From NCBI GenBank assembly GCA_024278935.1, contig JAJRSF010000048.1:124001-188000 (forward strand): a DNA stretch of 64,000 nt, written 5' to 3'. The translations under genes were made by a program, and so were the position numbers. Origin of the DNA: Candidatus Zixiibacteriota bacterium (GTDB lineage Bacteria; Zixibacteria; MSB-5A5; GN15; FEB-12). The notes under the pieces are model-generated. The model was not told the DNA's origin, did no database searches, and worked only from the letters and a program-made list of their open reading frames with translations. Shown in pieces: positions 30,135-49,092 of this stretch (its first letter is position 1; every line of letters begins with the position of its first letter).

Positions 30135-33068
30135 ATGAATCTTTCCTCGCCAAAAATTGTTTTTGATGATAAATTATTAGAAGTCGAAGAACTGTTTCGA
30201 CAACGTAAACATAAATTTGCTGCTGTAGAATTCGCCAAACTGCAAATTGATGATTATAAAGTAAAAGAGTATGAGCTTGGGCTTTACTACTCTCTTGCGG
30301 CAGACAGTGAATACTATAAAAGTAATTATAAAAAAGCTATAGACTTTGGTCTCAAAAGTGTGAAGCTACTTGCCGATTATTCCTTAAATAAACGGTTCGG
30401 CAAAATTCAACTTATCTTATCTAAAACATATTCAGCCCTTGGAGATTTAAAGAATGCTGAAATGAGAGCCAGAGATGGTCTCGCATCGTATCGTAGATGT
30501 GGTGATGATATCGGACAAGCTGATTCTCTAAATACTTTGGCTGGTATCTCTTTTATCCGATGTAACTATAACGATGTTGTCGAAGCTCTCGAAGATGGTC
30601 TCACCCATGTTCGCAATAACCCAAGAAAAGTCGCACAGCTCCGAGGTAACTTGGCTCGTACAAGAGTCTTTACCGGTCAATGGGAAGTTGCTGAAAAAGA
30701 AACTCTCGAAGTTTTAGAATATAATAGAACAAATAACGACGAAACCCCTCTTGCTATCAACACTCTTTCTCTTGCTTATCTGCAAATGCGGTTACGTAAA
30801 TTCCATCTTGCCTCAAAGACTTTAGACACAGCTCTGGAAATCATATACAGGCTTGATCTAAAACGTGAAAAATTTATCTACTTAGAATATGCCGGTGAAC
30901 TTGCTTTTGAAAAAGGTGATAACTTCAAAGCAAAATCGTTCCTGACGAAAGCATACGAACAAGGTCTTCTAATCGCTCCAAATTCTGATATGGTCTCACA
31001 ATCAGTACGTCGTTTAGCTGAAGTCGAACTCACTTTAGATAACATTGACGAAGCAATGAAATACGGACAAAAAGCTTTGGAAACATCGCTTGCCGTTGGT
31101 GAAAAAGTCGAAGTTGGACTCTCAAAAAGAGTCATCGCTCAAATTTTCTCCGTCCAAGGTGAACATTACGATGCTTTAGAATATATTAACCAATCGGTAG
31201 ACCTTATAAGAGAAGTCGGCGACCCGTTTGAGCTTGCTCGTACATTACTGGTCATGATAAATGTAAAACTTGAAGCAAATTCTGAAAATTATGACAAAAT
31301 TAAACTGATTCTCGATGAAGTTGTCAAAATATTTCAAAAACTTAAATTACCATTTTGGATTGCTGAAACAGAATTCAAAGCAGGTGTCTTTTATTGTAAA
31401 CATGGCAACCTTGCCGATGGATTTAAATCACTTTCTAAAGCCGAAAAAATCTATACCGATCTTGATGATAAAGTTAAAATTAGAGCAGTCTCAAAATTCT
31501 TAAAATCTTTATCAGACCAAGCAGTTGCTCTTTCAATCTCCCAAGAAAATGAATTTAAAGTTTTTGGCAACCTTATCACACCTACTGAAATCTCAAATAT
31601 TAAAACAAACCAATTAGAACAAATTTTACAGGTTCTTCTTAATCGTTCAGGTGGCGACAGAGCTTTAGTCTATACACCAGATTTTGTAGAATCTCCAATA
31701 AATACATCGTTCCCAATTTCAAAAAACCAAATGGCAAAATTTGCTATCGGGTTCAATAATTTGCTTGGTGAAGAGATTTCTAAATCAAAACCAACTATTA
31801 TTTTGGATTGCCGACGAGACCCATTTATCAATGGGCTAATCATTGACTCTACCGACATGGTCGCGAGTATGATTGTCATTCCGTTTAAGATGAGTGATGG
31901 CGTCGTAAGCTATCTCTATCTGGACAAAATCAGCCGCAACAATACTTTGAACCCATTCAGTCAGGATGAGCTCAACTTTGCCGTTGGTTTTTCTGACATT
32001 ATAGCTTTCAAGTGGGTTGAAATACAAAAACAAAAATTAATTGAAGATAATTTACGACTCAAAGATCAGCTTCGTCAAAAAGCTGCTTTCCCAAATATCA
32101 TTACCAAGAACTCTGAAATGCTTGAGATGCTTTCTCAGGTCAGACAGGTTCTTAATTCAAACATTTCTCTTTCAATCGAAGGCGAAACCGGTTCAGGCAA
32201 AGATGTCTTAGCTCAGGCTATACATTATAACTCTAATCGGAGAGATAAACGATTTATCTCGGTGAACTGTGCCGCATTACCGGAAACACTTTTAGAGTCT
32301 GAGTTATTTGGACATCGCAAAGGTGCTTTCACCGGTGCTGACAGGGACAAATCGGGACTCTTTGAAGAAGCCGATGGTGGTACTTTTTTCCTCGACGAAA
32401 TTGGTGATATGCCTCTTTCTGTCCAGGCAAAAGTGCTTCGTATTCTGGAAGAAAAAGAAATCATTCGTCTGGGTGAAACTGTTCCTCGCAAAGTTGATGT
32501 ACGTATTATATCGGCAACGAATAGAGACCTCAAAGAACTGATGAGTGAAAAACTTTTCCGTCAGGATTTATACTATCGACTTTCTGCTCTTACTTTTAAT
32601 CTGCCTTCATTAAGAGATCGTAAAGATGACATCCCGTTGTTGATTGAGCATTTCTTAAAAGGTTCATCCAAATCTTTTTCGGCACCAACACTTGCCAAAC
32701 TAGTAATGTATGACTGGCCGGGTAATATTCGTGAGCTTGAAAACGAAGTAAAGAAAATGATTCTTCTCTCAGGTGATGAAAGTGTTATTCAGGTCGAAAT
32801 TCTTTCATCGCAAATAAGTGGCCTCTCGGTTTCAGTTCCGACTAATGTCGCGTGCAATGCAAATGTCTCCGATAAAATTTCTTTTAATGAAGACTTCGGA
32901 TTGTATGACTATCTGGAACAGCATGAAGAAATATTCATCGAAAAAGCACTCAAAGAGAAAAAAGGTGTCAAAAAACATGCTGCCGATCTACTCAATATCC
33001 CGGAATCTACTCTAAGATTGAAAATCAAACAGTATGATATTGATGTCTCAAAAATGAAAAGAAAATAA
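30135..33068 (+). CDS. TPR-GAF sigma54-dependent transcriptional activator
   Basis: A 977-residue one-component activator. Residues about 1-460 are tetratricopeptide-like helical repeats (for example KNAEMRARDGLASYRRCGD, DNIDEAMKYGQKALE). About 490-640 is a GAF-like sensor domain. A short coiled linker leads to the AAA+ sigma54-interaction domain (about 660-890) with Walker A GETGSGKD, the contact loop GAFTGA and Walker B FFLDEIGDM. A Fis-type helix-turn-helix closes the protein (VKKHAADLLNIPESTLRLKI). There is no receiver domain, so control is likely by ligand or protein binding to TPR/GAF. Together with the NtrC-type regulator it makes two sigma54 activators for the two sigma54 sites seen here. 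Confidence 0.9.
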   Translation: MNLSSPKIVFDDKLLEVEELFRQRKHKFAAVEFAKLQIDDYKVKEYELGLYYSLAADSEYYKSNYKKAIDFGLKSVKLLADYSLNKRFGKIQLILSKTYSALGDLKNAEMRARDGLASYRRCGDDIGQADSLNTLAGISFIRCNYNDVVEALEDGLTHVRNNPRKVAQLRGNLARTRVFTGQWEVAEKETLEVLEYNRTNNDETPLAINTLSLAYLQMRLRKFHLASKTLDTALEIIYRLDLKREKFIYLEYAGELAFEKGDNFKAKSFLTKAYEQGLLIAPNSDMVSQSVRRLAEVELTLDNIDEAMKYGQKALETSLAVGEKVEVGLSKRVIAQIFSVQGEHYDALEYINQSVDLIREVGDPFELARTLLVMINVKLEANSENYDKIKLILDEVVKIFQKLKLPFWIAETEFKAGVFYCKHGNLADGFKSLSKAEKIYTDLDDKVKIRAVSKFLKSLSDQAVALSISQENEFKVFGNLITPTEISNIKTNQLEQILQVLLNRSGGDRALVYTPDFVESPINTSFPISKNQMAKFAIGFNNLLGEEISKSKPTIILDCRRDPFINGLIIDSTDMVASMIVIPFKMSDGVVSYLYLDKISRNNTLNPFSQDELNFAVGFSDIIAFKWVEIQKQKLIEDNLRLKDQLRQKAAFPNIITKNSEMLEMLSQVRQVLNSNISLSIEGETGSGKDVLAQAIHYNSNRRDKRFISVNCAALPETLLESELFGHRKGAFTGADRDKSGLFEEADGGTFFLDEIGDMPLSVQAKVLRILEEKEIIRLGETVPRKVDVRIISATNRDLKELMSEKLFRQDLYYRLSALTFNLPSLRDRKDDIPLLIEHFLKGSSKSFSAPTLAKLVMYDWPGNIRELENEVKKMILLSGDESVIQVEILSSQISGLSVSVPTNVACNANVSDKISFNEDFGLYDYLEQHEEIFIEKALKEKKGVKKHAADLLNIPESTLRLKIKQYDIDVSKMKRK

Positions 33069-33092
33069 ATTTTCTCATTAGAAAATAATTAC

Positions 33093-33121
33093 AAGGAGAT
33101 ACAATATGTATCTCCTTTTTT
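33093..33121 (+). terminator. Rho-independent terminator
   Basis: AAGGAGATACA (33093-33103) and TGTATCTCCTT (33107-33117) form a perfect 11-bp stem with a 3-base loop, running into a T-tract. It ends the sigma54 activator transcript. Confidence 0.9.
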
Positions 33122-33145
33122 ATTGCATCTATTTCAAGTAGAGAC

Positions 33146-33174
33146 TTGAAATCTTCTGAATTATCGTTTATCAT
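33146..33174 (+). promoter_or_regulatory. sigma70-type promoter, probably leaderless start
   Basis: TTGAAA (33146-33151), a 17-base spacer and TATCAT (33169-33174) end 6 bases before the ATG at 33181. No ribosome-binding site is visible. Confidence 0.52.
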
Positions 33175-33180
33175 TTTGAT

Positions 33181-34002
33181 ATGAAAATACTCACCTATGC
33201 ACATTTCAATTCCGACCCTTATTTTAATATGGCATTTGATGAATGGATGTTTCAGAAAGTGATCGACCAAGGATCTCTCATCTGTCTCCGCTTGTATAGC
33301 TGGTCGGTGGGAACCATCACCCTTGGTTTTAATCAGCAGTATCACAAAGCATTTGACAGTTCTAAAGTAGGCACAACACCGGTCATCAGGCGCGTGACAG
33401 GGGGGAGAGGACTCTTTCATGATGAATCAGAACTCACCTACTCTATCGCATTAAGTGCTGATTTGATTGATAAGACAATAGTGAGCGAATCTATTTCGGC
33501 TGCTTCCTCAGACATTGCGAAAATCTTGATACAATTCTTAAATCATTTTGATATTTCTTCAGATTATGTAAGGCAATCACATGAATGCGAAAAAAATAAA
33601 GATTTTTTTCTGAAGGCTCCCTGCTTTGCGTCATTTTCTAAAAATGAGATAGTAGCAGATAACCAAAAAATTATCGCATCGGCACAAAGACGAGTACTCG
33701 GTGCTTTGCTTCAACATGGCTCAATTAAAATAAAAGGTATCAAGCAACACGATGCCTTGTCGCCTGATGGTTTTAAGTCTCTAGGAATAAAAGAGATAGC
33801 CCGATTGACAGATCAGGAGTTTCAGCTATATCTGCCTCTGTTTTTTAAAACTTTCGCAAAAGCTTTTAACGCAGAAACGCTTGAAAGCGTGATGAGTATG
33901 AATGAAGAAAAAAGTTTGGAAAAAAGAAAAAACTTGGTTCTGCAGAAATCTGCAGAAAAAAGAGATTTTATTAAACAGAGTGAAGGCAAACTAAGTCTAT
34001 AA
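33181..34002 (+). CDS. Lipoate-protein ligase A / octanoyltransferase family protein
   Basis: A 273-residue member of the biotin/lipoate A/B ligase family. NMAFDEWMF at residue 15, the substrate-binding motif PVIRRVTGGRGLFHDESELTYS near 68-89 and KIIASAQRRVLGALLQHGSI near 160 (with the conserved Lys before the IASAQRR stretch) are typical. It would attach lipoyl or octanoyl groups to 2-oxoacid dehydrogenase or glycine cleavage proteins. No C-terminal accessory domain is present, and ligase versus LipM-type octanoyltransferase is not resolved. It is a monocistronic unit between a terminator and the TonB operon. Confidence 0.82.
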   Translation: MKILTYAHFNSDPYFNMAFDEWMFQKVIDQGSLICLRLYSWSVGTITLGFNQQYHKAFDSSKVGTTPVIRRVTGGRGLFHDESELTYSIALSADLIDKTIVSESISAASSDIAKILIQFLNHFDISSDYVRQSHECEKNKDFFLKAPCFASFSKNEIVADNQKIIASAQRRVLGALLQHGSIKIKGIKQHDALSPDGFKSLGIKEIARLTDQEFQLYLPLFFKTFAKAFNAETLESVMSMNEEKSLEKRKNLVLQKSAEKRDFIKQSEGKLSL

Positions 34003-34038
34003 GTTACTGAAGTCGGTAGGTGACAAGTAAAATATCGC

Positions 34039-34067
34039 TTGACATTCTAGGCGAATCTTGGCTATCT
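34039..34067 (+). promoter_or_regulatory. Possible promoter of the TonB receptor operon
   Basis: TTGACA (34039-34044) with a 17-base spacer and CTATCT (34062-34067). A separate TATAAT at 34078-34083 lacks a good -35. The leader would be about 170 bases long, ending in AGGAGG before the chosen start at 34247. Otherwise the 34003-34246 gap shows no ORF or strong hairpin. Confidence 0.35.
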
Positions 34068-34246
34068 TCGTCTTTTGTATAATTAAAAATATGATAGGAG
34101 TATTCCATTAGATAAGTAGCTAACTGTGATGAAGTTGTAATAAAATATTTCTCTCGATGACTCATCAATTGTTTTACATAGTCTAATGCGATAAATTTAG
34201 TATGAGAAAAAAAATAATTTGTTATACATATCCAGGAGGACGTGTT

Positions 34247-37200
34247 ATGTTTGAAAGTGGTAAGCGGCGATTACTATCGTTTCTCATCCTGGCAGGCTGT
34301 CTTGCCATTTTACCTCTAAGCCTTTTTGCTGCCTCTACAGGTCAAGTGAAAGGCGTCTTAACTGATAAAGATACTGGAGAACCAATTTTTGGTGCTTCTG
34401 TTTTTGTCGTTGGTACCACTTCTGGTGCTAATACAGATTTTGACGGTAAATATCTTATTAAACGATTAGACCCAGGTAAATATACCTTAAGAATTTCTAG
34501 CTTAGGTTATAGTAAGGTTGAAATCGAAAACGTTGTAATTACTTCAGATTTAACCAATGAACAGAACTTTAAGTTAACAAAAGAAGTTACTGATATTGGC
34601 AAAACTATTAAAGTTACTGCTGTACATGACATTCTTGACAAATTTAATACATCAAACGATGTTACTATTGGTGCCGAAACTATTGCGACTGCTCCTGTAA
34701 CGACTGTTGATGAACTTCTCAACACAGTCTCTGGTGTTGTGACAAACAACTCAGGTGAAGTGTTTATTCGTGGTGGTCGTGCTTTTGAAGTTGGCTATAT
34801 TGTTGATGGTGTTCCTTTAGGCGATCCACTTGGTGGTCTAGGTCAATCCGGTGCACAGTTGTCATTAGTGTCTGGTTCGATTCAGGAATTTACTGTTATT
34901 AAAGATGGCTTTGATCCAGAATATGGTAATGCTCTTTCCGGTATTGTAAAAATTAAAACACAAACCGGTTCAAAGGATGTTACCCGTTTAAACATGCAAT
35001 ACATTACTGATGATTTCGGAAATGAAAGCTTGAATAAATATTCTAAAGATTTAGACTATGTCCGTTTCAAACTAAGTGGTCCTGATCCAATTTTTAAAAG
35101 TAAAATTCTTCCTGCTTTAGGTATCAACTACTTTGAAGATAAAGAACTTACTTATTTCTTCTATGCTGAAATGGATAAAAGTGATGGCAACTATCAGTAT
35201 GATCGTTTTGATACCGATATTACTGCAAGAGATTACTCATCATTTAACGTCTTAGGTCTTTCTGTTCCAAACAAACAATATAATAACTACTATTGGATGG
35301 GGAATATTAAGTTCAGACCTGTTCAGAGTATGACTATTATTATGTCTTATAAAAATTCTCAGACTCGTCAGGTTTTATTTGATTGGGAACATAGATACAC
35401 CGCACAAACTGCTCCATATAATATTAATAAATGGAGTACGTTCTCATTTGAAATTTCCCAACAAGTAAACAAAAACATGAACTACGAATTTATCGGTTCA
35501 TATTCTAAAAATGGTACAACACAAAAACCGGGTGATATTGATAATGCTGATGTAGGTCTTGAAGCTGACCAATTCTTTTTTGATACAGAATGGGAAAGCT
35601 ATGAAGACAGAAATAACAATGGCGTCTATGATGCCCCTGAACCTATCATCAATCTTTTTCCGGATACCACAGATTACGGTATCAATGTTACCGGTGCCGC
35701 TTACACGCTTGGCGAATCAAACTTTGAAATAAACCAGCAAGGTGCCACTGCAATCTTTTCAGACTTTAGATTTAATGATAATGGTATTATTGATAGCCTG
35801 GAAGGCGAACCATTCCTTGACTTAAATGGCAATGGCCTTTGGGATGAGGGTGATTTCTTAAACGATAAAAATGGCAACGGTCTGCTAGATTCAGAGCTTG
35901 AATCCAGAATCGGTCAGCATACTGCAGAACCATACTTTGATGGCGATTCTGTCATTGGTGAATCTTTTATCGATGTTGATGATAATGGTGTCTATAACAA
36001 AGGTATTAATATTTTTATTCGTGATACTACCGAAAACAATATGGATTTAAACCATGATGGTCTTTATAATGGGCCTGAGGATGCTTGGCAGCCTGGTGTT
36101 CCATTCTTAGATAGAAACAGTAATGGACTTTATGACTTACCTAATTCTCAGTATGATATCGGTGAACCTTTTACTGATATAAATGGTAATGGTGTCTGGG
36201 ATGGTGGGTCATCAAATTCTTTTTATGATGTTGATACATATAGTGAAGCTGCTATTTGGCATGAAAGAGAAGTTAAAACTCTTCGTGGTGAATTTAAAAT
36301 GTTTGTTCAGCTTGGTAACCACGAGTTAAAAGGTGGCGTCGCATTACAAAGAGAAGATTTAGTATATCAAGAAATTCAACAACCGTATCTACAATATACC
36401 GGACGTCCTGATGGCGGACCATTCCCTGATAGAGGATCTTTCAGAGATATGTTTGCTTATGACCCTTGGGGTGGTCAAGTTTATTTCCGTGACAAACTGG
36501 AATATGGCTCGATGATTGCATCCTTAGGATTTAGATGGGATTTCTTTATTCAAGATAAAAATGATTTAGTTGAAATCGCTCGTAATGATGATTTAGGTTC
36601 CGGTATTATCTTAGGTGATAGACAAAAATTCTCACCTCGTATCGGTTTCTCTTATCCAATCTCTGATAAAGCAAAAGTGCATTTCAACTATGGGCATTTC
36701 TACCAAAGACCTGCTCTTACATATATGTATCAAAGAAACACAGCATCGGTTAGTTTAAATACTGTTATCGGTAACTATAACCTGGACTATATGAAGACTA
36801 TCCAATACTCATTTGGTGTAAGATACGCTATGAACGAAAGTTACTCTCTTGATATCTCTGGTTATTTTAAAGATGAATTTGATAAAATCAATCCTAAATC
36901 AGTTCGTGTTGGTGGCTTGTTCCGTCAGCAGTATCGAAATTCTGATTATGGTCGTGGTCGTGGATTTGAAATGACATTGGAAAAAAGAGGAGCTGGTCTC
37001 GTTAATGGTAGACTCAGTTATACTTATGCCTTTGCCTTTGGTAAAGCATCACAAACAAACTCTGATTACCAATCTGATTTTGAACTTTCTCGCGATCCAT
37101 TAGATGAAGCACCATTGGATAATGATGTACGTCACAGATTTACATCATCTGTCCAAGTATTCGTTCCAAATACAAAAAAACCAAAACTTTTTGGACTTCC

Positions 37201-37582
37201 AATTCCAAACGGTTGGTCTATGGATGTACAAATGTATTTTGAAAGTGGAAGACCTTTCACACCAAGTTCTGATTATCCTAATGTGAATACTGCCCTTGGT
37301 GAAAATATTCAAAGAAACTCCTTACGGAAACCATCGGTACTTAACTTTGATGTTCGTTTCTCAAAAGATTTCGCAATATTTGGTCTAGATAATAAAATGA
37401 TTTTGCAGGTTGAAAACGTATTTGATAGTCGAAATGTAAACTTTGTATATAGTAATACAGGGCTTCCTTTTACGAATAATAATACAAATGGTGAAATCAA
37501 TGAAGGTACTGCTTTCGATAACGATCCAAGTAACTATGATTACGGGCGTCAAATTAGGTTAGGAGTTGAAATCAACTTATAA
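34247..37582 (+). CDS. TonB-dependent outer membrane receptor with carboxypeptidase-regulatory-like domain and Ca-loop insert
   Basis: A protein of 1111 residues from ATG 34247, chosen because AGGAGG lies 7-8 bases upstream and a clean signal peptide follows (LSFLILAGCLAILPLSLFAAS). An in-frame ATG at 34202 would add 15 residues. Order: a CarboxypepD_reg-like beta domain (VKGVLTDKDTGEPIFGASVF), a plug domain with VFIRGGRAFEVGYIVDGVPLGD and LSGIVKIKTQTGS, then a long beta-barrel ending in a terminal-strand-like QIRLGVEINL. The barrel is interrupted at 35606-36202 by repeated D-x-N-x-N-G loops. It is the first gene of an operon with a PorV-like protein and a large lipoprotein. The substrate is unknown. 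Confidence 0.9.
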   Translation: MFESGKRRLLSFLILAGCLAILPLSLFAASTGQVKGVLTDKDTGEPIFGASVFVVGTTSGANTDFDGKYLIKRLDPGKYTLRISSLGYSKVEIENVVITSDLTNEQNFKLTKEVTDIGKTIKVTAVHDILDKFNTSNDVTIGAETIATAPVTTVDELLNTVSGVVTNNSGEVFIRGGRAFEVGYIVDGVPLGDPLGGLGQSGAQLSLVSGSIQEFTVIKDGFDPEYGNALSGIVKIKTQTGSKDVTRLNMQYITDDFGNESLNKYSKDLDYVRFKLSGPDPIFKSKILPALGINYFEDKELTYFFYAEMDKSDGNYQYDRFDTDITARDYSSFNVLGLSVPNKQYNNYYWMGNIKFRPVQSMTIIMSYKNSQTRQVLFDWEHRYTAQTAPYNINKWSTFSFEISQQVNKNMNYEFIGSYSKNGTTQKPGDIDNADVGLEADQFFFDTEWESYEDRNNNGVYDAPEPIINLFPDTTDYGINVTGAAYTLGESNFEINQQGATAIFSDFRFNDNGIIDSLEGEPFLDLNGNGLWDEGDFLNDKNGNGLLDSELESRIGQHTAEPYFDGDSVIGESFIDVDDNGVYNKGINIFIRDTTENNMDLNHDGLYNGPEDAWQPGVPFLDRNSNGLYDLPNSQYDIGEPFTDINGNGVWDGGSSNSFYDVDTYSEAAIWHEREVKTLRGEFKMFVQLGNHELKGGVALQREDLVYQEIQQPYLQYTGRPDGGPFPDRGSFRDMFAYDPWGGQVYFRDKLEYGSMIASLGFRWDFFIQDKNDLVEIARNDDLGSGIILGDRQKFSPRIGFSYPISDKAKVHFNYGHFYQRPALTYMYQRNTASVSLNTVIGNYNLDYMKTIQYSFGVRYAMNESYSLDISGYFKDEFDKINPKSVRVGGLFRQQYRNSDYGRGRGFEMTLEKRGAGLVNGRLSYTYAFAFGKASQTNSDYQSDFELSRDPLDEAPLDNDVRHRFTSSVQVFVPNTKKPKLFGLPIPNGWSMDVQMYFESGRPFTPSSDYPNVNTALGENIQRNSLRKPSVLNFDVRFSKDFAIFGLDNKMILQVENVFDSRNVNFVYSNTGLPFTNNNTNGEINEGTAFDNDPSNYDYGRQIRLGVEINL
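35606..36202 (+). repeat. Eight DxNxNG calcium-loop-like repeats inside the TonB receptor
   Basis: Within one extracellular stretch the protein shows DRNNNGVYD, FNDNGIID, DLNGNGLWD, DKNGNGLLD, DVDDNGVYN, DLNHDGLYN, DRNSNGLYD and DINGNGVWD. Most are preceded by a GEPFLD-like phrase. The pattern matches EF-hand/dockerin or thrombospondin-3-like Ca-binding loops. The family reading is established, and calcium binding here is inferred. Confidence 0.75.
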
Positions 37583-37617
37583 TGGTGAAAAATATTATTA
37601 GAAATAAAGAGGATATT

Positions 37618-38607
37618 ATGTCTTTGGCAAGTAACACAAAACTGAGCGGAGTATCTCTGCGCAGAACACTGACATTAAGCCTTGCTATACTCTTAACATT
37701 GATTGCTTTACTTATGCCATCAACTGTTAATGCTCAAGCAAAAGTTGGTACTACTGGCTCTCAATTCTTAGAGCTAGGGGTGTCCGCAAGAGCAATGGGT
37801 ATGGCTGAAGCTTTTACAGCAGCTGCTGATGATATCTCGGCTGTCTATTATAATCCGGCTGGATTAGTTAACTTATTCGGGTATGAAGCAGCATTTACAT
37901 TGATTCTAATGCCTGCCGATGTGAATTATTCATTCTTTGCTTTTGGACTTCCACTTGAATCTGTTGGTGGTGTCTTAGGCATTGGTATTTATTCACTCAA
38001 CTCAGGCGATATGATTGAAACTACATATGAAAGTGGTGAAATCGGCGGAACAGGCAGAACTTTTAGATGGCAGAACAATGCTGTATCTATCAGTTATGGA
38101 AGATACTTGACTGACCGTTTCTCTATTGGGCTTTCTGTGAAATACATTGGCGTAGATACTCATGATTACTCCGCATCTGGTTGGGCTGCCGACGTTGGAA
38201 CCAACTATGACACCGGTTTTAGAGGTTTCAAAATCGCTATGTCTATTTCAAACTTTGGACCTGACATTACTTTAATCAGTAAATCAGCACCTCTTCCTAT
38301 CAACTTTAAATTTGGTGGGACAATAAATATTATTGAAAGCGAAAACCATGTTTTAACTTTTGCGGCTGAGGGTGCTCATCCATCTGATAACTTAGAAAAA
38401 TATAACACCGGTCTTGAGTATACTTTTAATGATCGTTTCGTCTTACGTGGCGGGTCTCGTTTTAACTATGACGAAGACGGACTTACAGCAGGTGGCGGAG
38501 TAAGAGTGCCATTTGGTGAAGACAGCGAAATACGATTCGATTACGCCTTCCAGGACTTTGGAATCTTGACAGAAGTTCACCGTTTTACAATGTCATTGGC
38601 ATTTTAA
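37618..38607 (+). CDS. PorV/PorQ-type outer membrane beta-barrel protein
   Basis: A protein of 329 residues from ATG 37618, preceded by AGAGGA. An earlier in-frame ATG at 37582 overlaps the TonB receptor stop but lacks a close ribosome site. A signal peptide is followed by the diagnostic GSQFLELGVSARAMGMAEAF and AAADDISAVYYNPAGLVNL motifs of the PorV/UPF0164 family, then alternating beta-strands to a terminal Phe (RFTMSLAF), as in outer membrane barrels. In type IX secretion PorV shuttles cargo to the attachment complex. Two proteases with matching sorting domains are encoded downstream, though the pairing is an inference. Confidence 0.83.
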   Translation: MSLASNTKLSGVSLRRTLTLSLAILLTLIALLMPSTVNAQAKVGTTGSQFLELGVSARAMGMAEAFTAAADDISAVYYNPAGLVNLFGYEAAFTLILMPADVNYSFFAFGLPLESVGGVLGIGIYSLNSGDMIETTYESGEIGGTGRTFRWQNNAVSISYGRYLTDRFSIGLSVKYIGVDTHDYSASGWAADVGTNYDTGFRGFKIAMSISNFGPDITLISKSAPLPINFKFGGTINIIESENHVLTFAAEGAHPSDNLEKYNTGLEYTFNDRFVLRGGSRFNYDEDGLTAGGGVRVPFGEDSEIRFDYAFQDFGILTEVHRFTMSLAF

Positions 38608-38626: not shown

Positions 38627-40851
38627 ATGAATATGAAAATTATGAATAAAAATAAAATAAGCTTAATTGTCCTGCAATCGTTCTTTATTGCTATGGTGTC
38701 GTTGTTCGTCTTTAGCGGATGCTCTGATACAATTAATGGTGAGCTAAATCAAAATTTAAAACCTATTGTTGAATTTGTAAATATCCCACCTGAAGGTCAA
38801 CAATTCTCTAGAAACCCGGAAGTCTATTGGATCGGTTCTGATCCTGATGGACTTATTGATTATTATCGCTATCATATTGCTGATACTATTTTAGTCAATG
38901 GTGTTTCTGGAATTCCTAATTATATTAGTACATTACATGATACTGACTGGGTGCAAATCAACATTGACCACGATGTAGCTGATCCACATACGACTAATGT
39001 TCTACCATTGACTGCTGATACTATAAATCCGGTAACGAATCCGATTACACAGTTTATTCTTTTACAAGCATTCGATAGAGAAAACTTAGGCTCTGAAGTT
39101 GCCGCTAAATTTTTCAATAGAAATGATAACCCACCGGAAACACGGCTGCTTGATTTTAGTAATCAATTACCTTTTGTAAACTCTGTTTTTGAAGGTGGTA
39201 TTGTTACTGGTTTAAGGTTTAATTGGGTTGGCTCTGATCGTAAAGATTATGATGAAATCGGTCTGACCCCACCTCCATTTGATTATGAGTGGAGACTTTT
39301 TGGACCATTTGAAGATTCTATCATTGATCGTATCAATAACACATTGATTGACGACGTTGTTGTTTCTAATGAAGCTGAAGTATTTTACTTAGGTGATAAT
39401 ATCATCAGGTGTCGTGACACTACGATAAGTACGGTTGATTCTATTTACACTTTAGAACTATGTGATACAATATTATATAATCAGGCGTTCTATGATTCTG
39501 ATACTTTGTTGGCATTCTATAAAAGAGATAAAATCATAAGAGTTGATGATCCTCTTATTTCATCATTACTTGTGACAAGCTCTTTTAATGGTATTGACCA
39601 ATGGGTGCAAAACGAAAGAGATACTTTATATAATGTGTATAAAAAATCTACTTCTGACACAACCGTTGAATTTAGTTTTATCTCTGGGTTCGTTCTCGTG
39701 ATGATGCTTTTGTTAAAGATTTAACTCCGGCTTTTAAATCATTCCCGGTAATCAATCCTAAATATGAACGTGATATTGCTGTGATAGATTTCACTCCAAC
39801 ACCGGCTAATGCTCAAGAAAATCATGCACAATATATTAGTCTTGAATTGGCTAAAGGATTTTGGTATGACCTCATTCATGAATGGGGCGCAACAAGACCG
39901 TCTGGGACTGTTCTCTTTGATACTTCCTTCTTTACAGCGAGTGAAGTAACTTACGACGCTGAAATCGGTGTCTCAGGTATTGATTATATTATCGCACGTA
40001 AGTATTTTGGTGTTAATGGTATTCCAATTAAGTACTTGTTAAAACATAAAGTACTGATTCTCTATAATGAAAGCTTTAAGTCGTCAGGATTTGTCGATGT
40101 TGGAGGAGTTAGTTACCCCGAAATATTAACTGCCATGGATGCTGGGATCAATGTATGGGCTAACTGGAGAAATGCAGGACCTGTACAACCTGGATCTGTA
40201 ACATCAGTTGATATTTCTGCTTCATTTGACTTTAGGCTTTATTTTGGAGTTATGGGTTGGACTTATTCTGCTTGGTTCGGTAAAGCATTTGAACCATTTG
40301 TCCCACCTGAGCTAATGAAGAGGAATGAAGACTTTGTTGGTACGTACTCTATAAACGAAGCCGCATGGCCAAGTTTAGATATTGATACATCTTTTCTGCA
40401 TACCAGATTGGGTTGGCATACTACTCTTACTTTCTTAGATACTTTCTTTTATGAACCATCTCTTGGCTGGAGAGACACTATTGCTGCAGTACCAGAGGTA
40501 AACTGGTGTTCAAGAGCTCCGGGAACAGAAGTTATGTATCTATATAAATCAAAATATGGTCCTGGTTTTGAAGATGATTACGAAGGTGCTCCAGTTGGAC
40601 ATCGCCTAGAATCTAACTTCTTTAGATCTGTTCACTTTAACTTTACCATGCTGACTATTGAAGAACTTCAAGCTCAGAAGATTACAAACTCTGTCTTAGA
40701 CTGGTTGTATGAAACAGCATTGAATAGTTCGACTGTTCAAGAAAATAGATATGAAGATGCTCCGAATAAAATTTCTCTTGACGATGCTCGTTCAAGATAT
40801 GAACAACGCATGATAGATCAAGCTGAAGAAAGAGCAATTTCAGGTAACTAA
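38627..40851 (+). CDS. Large lipoprotein of unknown function (one-base frameshift near 39684)
   Basis: Two open segments (38627-39724 and one covering 39781-40851) join into about 741 residues if one base is added near 39683-39685. The correct frame reads WVRSRDDAFVKDLTPAFKSF, which is the natural continuation. The N-terminus has a lipoprotein signal with SLFVFSGC. An Ig- or fibronectin-like region follows (EFVNIPPEGQQFSRNPEVYW, GSDPDGLIDYYRYH). The C-terminal half is a globular domain I do not recognise. Proteins of this layout are commonly found beside TonB/PorV genes in FCB genomes. It is the last gene of the operon and lies just before a terminator. Confidence 0.7.
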
Positions 40852-46330: not shown

Positions 46331-49092
46331 ATGTTTTCAAAAAAAATAATAACTCACATTCTGTACTTTATAGTAGCACTGAGTTTCACGGCACAATTTG
46401 CGTTTGCTGTAGCACCATCAAAAGATGTTATCACCAAATTGAAACAAGATGGTGTCTATGATGAAAAGATGGCTCTCCTCAAAGATTTCCATAAACGAGG
46501 TGGATGTTCCCCTGTTGAAAATATCTTCAAAAAAGGAAAAAACTCACTCGCAGCAGGTAATGAAGCTGTTGTTGATACAGTCAATGTAGTTGTTCTGTTA
46601 GTCCAATTTTCTGACAATCTCGCAAGTGGAGATGAACAATTTGGTACTATTGCCGATTTTGATTCTATCCTGTTCTCTCAATCATCGGATATCATAAATA
46701 ACCCATCCGGTTCAATGACTGACTTCTATTTAGAAAATTCCTACGGTAACTTTTATATCAAAGGTGATATTACGGTTGGTACATGATGCCGGAATCTTAT
46801 GCATACTATACTAATAATGAGAGTGGACTTGGAGCTTATCCAACTAATTCTCAGAGATTGACTGATGATGCTATTCAAATTGCTGATGCGGATGTTGATT
46901 TTTCATTATATGATTTTAATAATGACGGTGACTGCGATGGTGTGATTCTTATTCACGCTGGTGCCGGCTTTGAAACTTCTGGCTTAACAACTGATATTTG
47001 GTCGCATAAATGGTCAATTCGTTCACCTCGATCTTTAGATGGTGTTTGGGTCGATAATTACAACATGAATCCTGAAGAGTATATTACAGGTGGTGGTACT
47101 ACACTTTCACCAATCGGTGTTTTCTGTCATGAGTATGGACATTTCTTAGGACTCCCTGATTTATATGATACTTCAGATACAACGAATACTTCTTCAGGTC
47201 TTGGAGAATGGTCGCTAATGGCATCCGGTAATTATAATGGCCCTGGTGATAACTCAAGATACCCTGCCCATTTTGATCCGTGGTGCAAATCACAAATCGG
47301 TTTTATAAATCTCATAGATGTCACCGATAATCTATACAACGTAGAAATCCCGCAGATAGAAACAAATCCAACGGCATACAGACTACGCAATGCTATTACC
47401 GGTCCAAGTGAATATTTTATCGTTGAAAACAGACAAAAAGTCGGCTTTGATGCATACTTGCCATCCGAAGGACTTCTGATTTATCACATCGATGAAACCC
47501 GTGCTGATAATACTGACTTTTTTAGATACAAAGTTGCCTTGGAACAAGCTGACAATTTAAACCAGTTAGCATTTCACGGTAGTGGTGGTGACACTGGTGA
47601 TCCATTCCCGGGTTTAACTGACAATAGAGAATTCCAACAATACACTGCTCCAAACTCATACCTCTACAGTGGCACTGCTTCTCAAATTGGTGTATGGAAT
47701 ATCTCAAACTCTGATTCTATTATGACTGCCGATCTTGATGTTGCCTATTCAAGACCTTGGATCGAATCTGTCGGACTATCACCATTTGTTATGGCAGATG
47801 CTGACTCTGATGGTATTTTAGAACCGGGCGAAACAGTACAATTCTTTTTCTCAATAAGTAATCAGATGAGAATAACTGAAAACGTACATGCTACATTATC
47901 AAGCGATAACCCCAGTTTACAATTTACTCAAAATAATATTACAGTTCCCGGTTTGTTTTATTCTGCAACTCTGCAAAACCCTTCCGCACCAATTGAATTC
48001 ATAATACCGGACACAGTTAGTCCACGTATTGATTCATTCTTCTTGACAATCACAACCGACTCTCTTGATGCATTTTCAAATCCAATAACTGGCTCAGTAA
48101 CACATATAAAAACTTTTGGATTCGAATTCACTATCGGTCAACCAAATATCTTAATCGTTGATGCCGATAGGGGAGACACACTCCAAGCAGGAGTCGAAAA
48201 TTCTCTCTATAATAAAAGAGTTCCTACAGACACTTGGGATAGAAACAACGATGGTACTCCAAACATCGGTGACATTGCTCCATATGATATAATTCTTTGG
48301 AATACCGGAACTAATACGGTCTCCGGTGCTATCAATGCTGCCGATATCGCGGTCATGAAACAAATTATGGATGCTGGCAAAAATCTTATGCTATCAACAG
48401 TAGGTGGTGTTGATGACATCATAGGTATAGACTCTACATTGATGACAGACTATTTCCATATTCGGAAAGATGCTACTGTCATGTATCCTGAATACCTCGG
48501 AACTCCGGGGAGTGCCTTGGGAAACAATATGAAATTCCTTCCGGGTTCATCATTCTTTACACCTGTCGTGACCCTCATACCAATAGGAGCAGGAGCTCCC
48601 GAATTTTCATCAGGCGGACAGATTGTCGGCGTATCATATAGTGGTTCATACAAGTCTTTATTCATAACATTTGGGGCCGATTCAGTTGATAATAATATAC
48701 CCGGTTATAATACGCAGTCAGACTATTTTGATAGAGTCGTCGATTTCTTCGGAGGTATCGCAACTGACATTTACGACGGCAACCCATATGCTCGCATTCC
48801 AAATTCATTTGACCTCTCGCAGAACTATCCGAACCCGTTTAACCCGACTACTACTATCAGATATACAATCCGACCTACCGATGAAATCGGTGCTGTGACT
48901 CGTCTTGATGTTTTCAATATGATGGGACAAAAAGTTATCACTCTTGTCGATGAAGCCCAAATCCCGGGTAATTATGAAGTTCAGTGGGATGGGGTCAACT
49001 CAAATCACCAAGAAGTATCCTCGGGGATGTATTTCTACCGTCTAACCCGTGGTTCTGAATATAGCAGTAAAAAAATGACTCTTCTGAAATAA
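46331..49092 (+). CDS. Secreted M6-family metalloprotease with C-terminal sorting domain (one-base frameshift near 46770)
   Basis: Segments 46331-46786 and 46783-49092 join into about 920 residues when one T is restored in ATTA at 46769-46772. The natural frame reads YGWYMMPESYAYYTN. The N-terminus is a signal peptide. The M6 (immune inhibitor A-like) domain has the zinc motif CHEYGHFLGLPDLYD and the downstream LGEWSLMASGNYNG. A beta-rich middle region and an Ig-like domain precede the sorting-type domain (SQNYPNPFNPTTTI to KMTLLK). It lies 78 bases after the subtilisin gene without its own clear promoter, so it probably shares the sigma54 promoter. Confidence 0.85.

Follow-up and report, generated by a model that had tools for sequence, protein, structure and literature searches.

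We analysed a 64,000-nucleotide stretch of Candidatus Zixiibacteriota DNA (hereafter the window), in which a forward-strand open reading frame of 1,126 residues (34202..37582) encodes a TonB-dependent receptor. Although the frame is open from 34202, the probable start of the gene is the second ATG at 34247 (residue 16; gene 34247..37582, + strand), because this codon is preceded by AGGAGG in the upstream sequence and a Met is aligned here in most orthologs that reach that far. The receptor begins with a CarboxypepD_reg-like N-terminal domain (34343..34594, + strand; residues 48–131; Pfam PF13715 and PF13620, both above cut-off), which is followed by a Plug domain (34649..34942, + strand; residues 150–247; PF07715, 37.6 bits against a cut-off of 23.9) and then by an outer-membrane barrel matching OMP_b-brl_4 (PF25183, 49.6 bits against a cut-off of 30), the plug-then-barrel order of a TonB-dependent receptor. 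A TonB-box-like stretch was judged by eye near residues ~130–140. The receptor scored 61.9 bits with the NCBIfam SusC/RagA model TIGR04056, far under its cut-off of 368.25, and no SusD domain was found among the neighbours scanned with Pfam. Eight Plug matches in the same genome exceed the cut-off, one of them at this receptor.

Within this otherwise standard receptor lies a discrete insert with a cluster of calcium-type loops, located exactly where the original prediction had placed it: the first loop starts at 35606 and position 9 of the last ends at 36202. No Pfam model (to E 0.1) or NCBIfam model spans the array. Reading along the + strand, loop 1 begins at D469 (DRNNNGVYD, 35606..35632), followed by a degenerate loop 2 at residue 523 with Arg at position 1 (RFNDNGIID, 35768..35794), loop 3 at D540 (DLNGNGLWD, 35819..35845; identified by motif match and alignment) and, 15 residues further on, loop 4 at D555 (DKNGNGLLD, 35864..35890). 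Loop 5 at D591 (DVDDNGVYN, 35972..35998) opens a region that recurs in lipoprotein-like proteins, and this shared region also contains the motif matches of loop 6 at D615 (DLNHDGLYN, 36044..36070), loop 7 at D637 (DRNSNGLYD, 36110..36136) and loop 8 at D659 (DINGNGVWD, 36176..36202). The cluster had been described as eight DxNxNG loops, a count that is reached by including the degenerate site 523, whereas D.N.NG itself occurs only five times and the strict pattern D.[DN].[DN]G seven times (469, 540, 555, 591, 615, 637 and 659). Shuffling residues 455–700 2,000 times gave at most one D.N.NG and three D.[DN].[DN]G matches, and shuffling the whole receptor 2,000 times gave at most two and four; the loop array is genuine, with a count far above that of the shuffles. 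Just one further window frame of at least 60 residues contains more than a single D.[DN].[DN]G match. This frame (46768..49089, 774 residues) has four, at 48, 52, 343 and 490, the first two of which overlap.

To follow the loops across related receptors, we used a family set comprising the best 30 loci of a longer match list, own receptor included and weaker and partial matches left out, together with a class-wide alignment of 41 rows, with class-wide loop counts taken from 40 diverse receptors. At site 523, Asn3, Asn5 and Asp9 are present in all 30 family rows, 27 of which have Arg at position 1. In the class-wide alignment, position 1 is Asp in 22 of the 27 rows with a residue there and is gapped in the remaining 14. 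Because this position is mostly Asp class-wide, eight is a plausible older loop count. Each loop had also been said to be paired with a GEPFxD phrase, which does not hold: GEPFxD occurs exactly only twice in the array and GESFID once. From the alignments, the phrase is best read as an acid at −4, an aromatic residue at −2 and the first Asp of the loop, and the conserved companion is the −4 acid, found at five of the seven strict loops. Position −4 is E or D in 30/30 family rows for loops 469, 540, 555, 591 and 659, is Pro in 15 and Glu in 4 of the 30 rows for loop 615, and is acidic in none for loop 637. Taking all loops together, an acid stands at −4 in 71% of the 197 loops of the family and 66% of the 288 class-wide loops, the mean acidic content of family receptors being 13%. 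Loop 1 has Glu at both −4 and position 12 in 30/30 family rows, and D551 is at once position 12 of loop 3 and position −4 of loop 4, these loops standing 15 residues apart.

The loop ligand columns are the most conserved of the column sets compared. The mean majority-residue fraction at positions 1, 3, 5, 6 and 9 was 0.955 in the family (30 rows) and 0.906 class-wide (41 rows), values favoured by the use of positions 1, 3, 5 and 6 in finding the loops, for which 9 and −4 were not used. The corresponding fractions were 0.665 and 0.469 for the rest of the insert, 0.785 and 0.589 for the plug, and 0.763 and 0.577 for barrel residues 690–1126. Position 9 is Asp in 92% of the 197 family loops and 88% of the 288 class-wide loops. 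Copy number had been suggested as possibly variable between strains, and among related species such variation was not borne out: residues 400–780 contain seven strict loops in 16 and six in 12 of the 30 family receptors, giving six or seven in 28/30, with eight in one and five in one. Spacing is likewise near-constant in the family, mostly 70–73, 15, 36, 24–25, 22–28 and 22 residues, with 36 and 24 merging to 60 where 591 is not strict; exceptions include L017, L023, L024, L026 and L028. We therefore rejected copy-number variation among related species on the near-fixed number and spacing in the 30 family orthologs. Variation in loop number appears between families, the 40 class-wide receptors having 5–12 strict loops, and two of them have further strict matches elsewhere in the protein (two in L092 and one in L100).

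We next considered where the insert lies in the receptor fold. An AlphaFold2 model of the whole receptor, built with 14 alignment rows, had a mean pLDDT of 42.9 and a pTM of 0.40; strands 406–423, 426–442, 687–704 and 707–724 lie in its better part, with pLDDT ~80. The insert, residues 443–686 (35528..36259, + strand), falls between strands 426–442 and 687–704 and is almost without predicted secondary structure, with block pLDDT values of 23–45 (51 for residues 441–450). Counting by eye in this model of mean pLDDT 42.9 gave ~22 strands, with 353–356/360–374 and 750–753/756–768 each taken as one. Eight turns of 2–5 residues, including 424–425 and 705–706, lie on the side opposite the insert, and two presumed periplasmic connections (294–316 and 987–1005) are longer than these short turns. 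Strand parity and the short turns on the opposite side would place the insert outside the cell, probably as extracellular loop 4 between predicted strands 7 and 8. The extracellular location proposed originally thus agrees with this weak model, which, as regards location, puts the loops outside the predicted barrel strands. Modelling residues 424–708 alone (14 alignment rows) gave a mean pLDDT of 34.5 and a pTM of 0.18, and neither low-confidence model (pLDDT over the array 23–45, mean 34.5) has helix pairs flanking the loops. Because pLDDT is low over the array, the models neither back nor refute calcium geometry. The 50 matches listed by Foldseek for the whole weak model are TonB-type receptors.

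The lack of a predicted fold for the array, together with its composition (D 12, N 11 and G 11 percent of residues 455–700), would suit a low-complexity spacer, that is, an Asn/Asp/Gly-rich loop whose motif is kept by internal duplication and compositional bias without any metal. One 40-base direct-repeat pair, 80% identical, is also in keeping with duplication, and it is the longest among the four direct-repeat families. However, the other direct repeats are only 14–18 bases long and TRF found no tandem array, on which grounds we rejected recent DNA duplication as the source of the repeats. Also against a spacer, conservation is higher in the ligand columns than in those of the plug and barrel, and the loop spacing is near-fixed in the family. 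We regard a metal-free spacer as improbable.

Repeated calcium loops are also a feature of thrombospondin type 3 repeats and dockerins, which the array resembles in this respect, although residues 455–700 contain no cysteine and the Pfam models for thrombospondin type 3 repeats and dockerins gave no match at E 0.1. EF-hand Pfam models likewise gave no match in the receptor at E 0.1. Searching the PDB with the array profile returned four matches up to E 10, the best two being EF-hand-type calcium proteins (E 0.012 and 0.02), and the single array sequence returned two weak matches (E 1.1 and 1.5). Passages of a survey of Dx[DN]xDG calcium loops report that such loops occur outside EF-hands (PMC3123361). 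The array has the loop sequence and conserved ligand positions of this group, sharing with the proteins described in those passages the spacing D1-x-[DN]3-x-[DN]5-G6 and a backbone ligand right after the motif, and differing from them in that Asn predominates at position 5 and eight loops are gathered in one barrel loop (PMC3123361). Because Dx[DN]xDG loops are known for calcium in those passages (PMC3123361), calcium is the likely ligand of the loops, and from the conservation of the ligand positions the calcium-stiffened array proposed originally is plausible. Binding may be weak at some sites, given that Asn mostly replaces the usual Asp at position 5, that 637 is without a −4 acid and that 615 rarely has one. 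The text of PMC3123361 mentions neither TonB nor the outer membrane, and the open-licence PMC papers searched yielded no account of a large calcium-loop domain within an extracellular loop of a TonB receptor.

The array is widespread in the lineage. A 12-row profile of the insert (A2), applied at a threshold of E 1e-6 to 118 sampled genomes, all of one class, matched 113 of them, including 77 of the 78 genomes with completeness of 90% or more and contamination of no more than 5%; the five genomes without a match (G047, G074, G085, G108 and G115) include one of good quality. In every matching genome apart from G118 (410 aa), the open frame that contains the best match has at least 500 residues; contig ends truncate some of these frames. 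A single receptor-sized match per genome is usual, and G030 and G084 have two. In the genome analysed here, the array region matches three times: in the receptor, in a 354-aa frame and, weakly, on C13 (E 0.04).

Beyond the receptors, the part of the array with the last four loops also occurs in 15 short ORFs of 250–382 aa, most of which are lipoprotein-like, and this bears out the claim that the insert is modular. Four strict loops are present in 5 of these ORFs, three in 8 and two in 2. A lipobox pattern occurs in 9/15, although the one in L129 lies inside the protein and lacks credibility. Among the six ORFs without the pattern, five have a hydrophobic stretch ending in Cys, judged by eye, and the sixth, L127, is truncated at the 5′ end. 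The copy in the genome analysed here shares 49% identity with insert positions 93–220, corresponding to receptor residues 547–674. In this genome, a 348-aa lipoprotein-like ORF with the last-four-loop region (L002, 1399..2445; G000:C11) lies near an ABC transporter ATPase-like ORF, and G022 and G040 (L119 and L121) each have two neighbouring four-loop lipoprotein-like ORFs within ~6 kb. A recent exchange of the module between the receptor and the lipoprotein of this genome would fit a quick tree of the module (85 rows, 88 columns), in which the two group together (SH-aLRT 87), but the same data do not reject the alternative that the 15 lipoprotein-like ORFs form a single clade (AU p 0.161). 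The array is probably a genuine surface module common to the receptor and small lipoproteins.

The genes around the receptor also encode surface proteins. The next gene (37582..38607, + strand) encodes an outer-membrane barrel of the PorV/PorQ family (NCBIfam NF033709, 190.1 bits against a cut-off of 90), which reaches only this broader family, scoring 61.7 bits with the type 9 PorV model NF033710 (cut-off 250). It is followed by a large lipoprotein-like gene (38627..40851, + strand) with a signal peptide ending in FSGC, judged by eye, and no Pfam match. This gene comprises two ORFs here (38627..39724 and 39781..40851) and is split in L038 too, while a single frame of 720–798 aa is found in L035, L036, L040, L041, L043 and L045; the split may reflect a broken gene or an assembly error. 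The family gene order, represented at 30135..38607 in the window, is a sigma-54-type activator, a lipoate ligase, the receptor and the PorV-family barrel. Across 43 loci (L004–L046, some being the same contig under two ids), 39 have a PorV-family ORF after the receptor, and the four without it end within the receptor or ~0.5 kb past it. A lipoate ligase stands before the receptor in 34, and the nine loci without one have less than 0.85 kb upstream. The sigma-54-type activator is found in seven of the loci that reach far enough, and the large lipoprotein in nine. Class-wide, where loci end 0.4–1.7 kb after the receptor, a PorV-family gene lies directly downstream in 8/40, comprising five of the six loci from the same order and 3/34 outside it. 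An earlier single-sequence check found a PorV-family ORF in 9 of these 40 loci, directly downstream in 8. With only 8/40 class-wide loci having it directly downstream, we rejected the PorV-family neighbour as a constant partner. In ten loci of other families (L080, L081, L084, L090, L091, L092, L099, L100, L104 and L105), a different exported protein follows the receptor and carries variants of an EFPxGS...YLFQGALW-like stretch; the three of these ten that were scanned had no Pfam match. The genome analysed here also has an SprA match above cut-off (G000:C64) and ten PorV-family matches above cut-off, and it probably encodes a type 9 secretion system because of the SprA match.

These neighbours bear on the main rival to the docking reading we favour, namely that the receptor is an Oar-type barrel that exports or assembles surface proteins, the calcium domain serving as a folding or docking platform outside the cell, with no part in nutrient import. 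The barrel match is to PF25183, which we take to cover Oar-like receptors, and Oar is reportedly needed for secretion of the protease PopC (PMC11658791). The receptor is like Oar in its TonB-dependent receptor architecture, and a family link through PF25183 is possible. An export role would also suit an array found in nearly all sampled genomes, the placement of the receptor beside surface-protein genes (the PorV family and the large lipoprotein here, another exported protein in other families), and the SprA and PorV-family matches in the genome. However, PorV-family genes are numerous in this genome, which makes their adjacency weak evidence, the receptor neighbours differ between families, and the export role draws on the barrel-family match. 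We consider export or assembly unlikely, while ranking it first among the alternatives. A broader scheme, in which a portable calcium-shaped domain common to receptor and lipoproteins recognises the same partner or each other and the receptor would serve surface-protein export or assembly, not nutrient uptake, is in our view somewhat more doubtful still.

Known calcium-dependent proteins of the outer membrane provide two further points of comparison. According to excerpts of PMC7360065, the affinity of BtuB for B12 drops ~1000-fold at sub-saturating calcium, and calcium in the present receptor might by analogy act mainly as a switch of affinity for a small ligand. In BtuB, calcium acts on extracellular parts of a TonB-dependent receptor (PMC7360065), as it would in the array, and calcium-bound BtuB (1nqg) ranks second in the Foldseek search with the whole weak model. 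That match, however, comes from a weak model and is unspecific among receptors, and BtuB, as described in those excerpts, has two sites in a single five-aspartate cage, whereas the array is a repeated-loop domain of ~240 residues (PMC7360065); eight spaced loops in so large a domain are more than a switch would need. Calcium gating of the BtuB kind therefore seems to us improbable, on a par with the metal-free spacer. Another analogy is the C-terminal domain of BamM from Flavobacterium, which, in the portion of PMC12611786 that describes it, lies at the cell surface without well-defined secondary structure, is held partly by seven calcium ions and belongs to a protein complexed with the FadL-family barrel BamG and the surface lipoprotein BamH. 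The array would resemble this domain in being extracellular, without clear secondary structure and calcium-shaped (PMC12611786, in part). BamM, unlike the array, is a separate lipoprotein in that description (PMC12611786). No BamM chain is among the four PDB matches of the array profile up to E 10, so that we draw an analogy and make no claim of homology.

Taken together, we favour, as a reasonably probable account, the reading of the array as a docking domain at the cell surface that owes its shape to calcium and sits in extracellular loop 4 of a Zixibacteria receptor, itself widely conserved and usually present once per genome. A single Ca2+ would be bound by each loop of the form D1-x-N3-x-N5-G6-x7-[YW]8-D9, most of them with an acid at −4 or 12, in the manner of other Dx[DN]xDG sites but probably with no EF-hand helices. 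Only on binding calcium, most likely in the extracellular space, would the chain settle into a defined shape. We infer calcium binding, calcium-driven folding and a docking role, the last of which would consist of a defined surface for capturing a ligand, or a partner protein of the cell surface, and offering it to the receptor pore. Such a docking surface, rather than a stretchable tether, is suggested because loop number and spacing are near-constant in the family and because the last-four-loop region is reused in lipoproteins. The original idea of a capture arm for a large substrate or for surface contact is a guess.

If the array proved to be only a rigid nutrient-capture loop, its interest would be modest. 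Its presence in 113/118 genomes of a mostly uncultured lineage probably points to a general surface function, and the occurrence of the module in lipoproteins too would provide a handle on which surface proteins work together. The array also lends itself to experiments on whether calcium drives folding at the cell surface.
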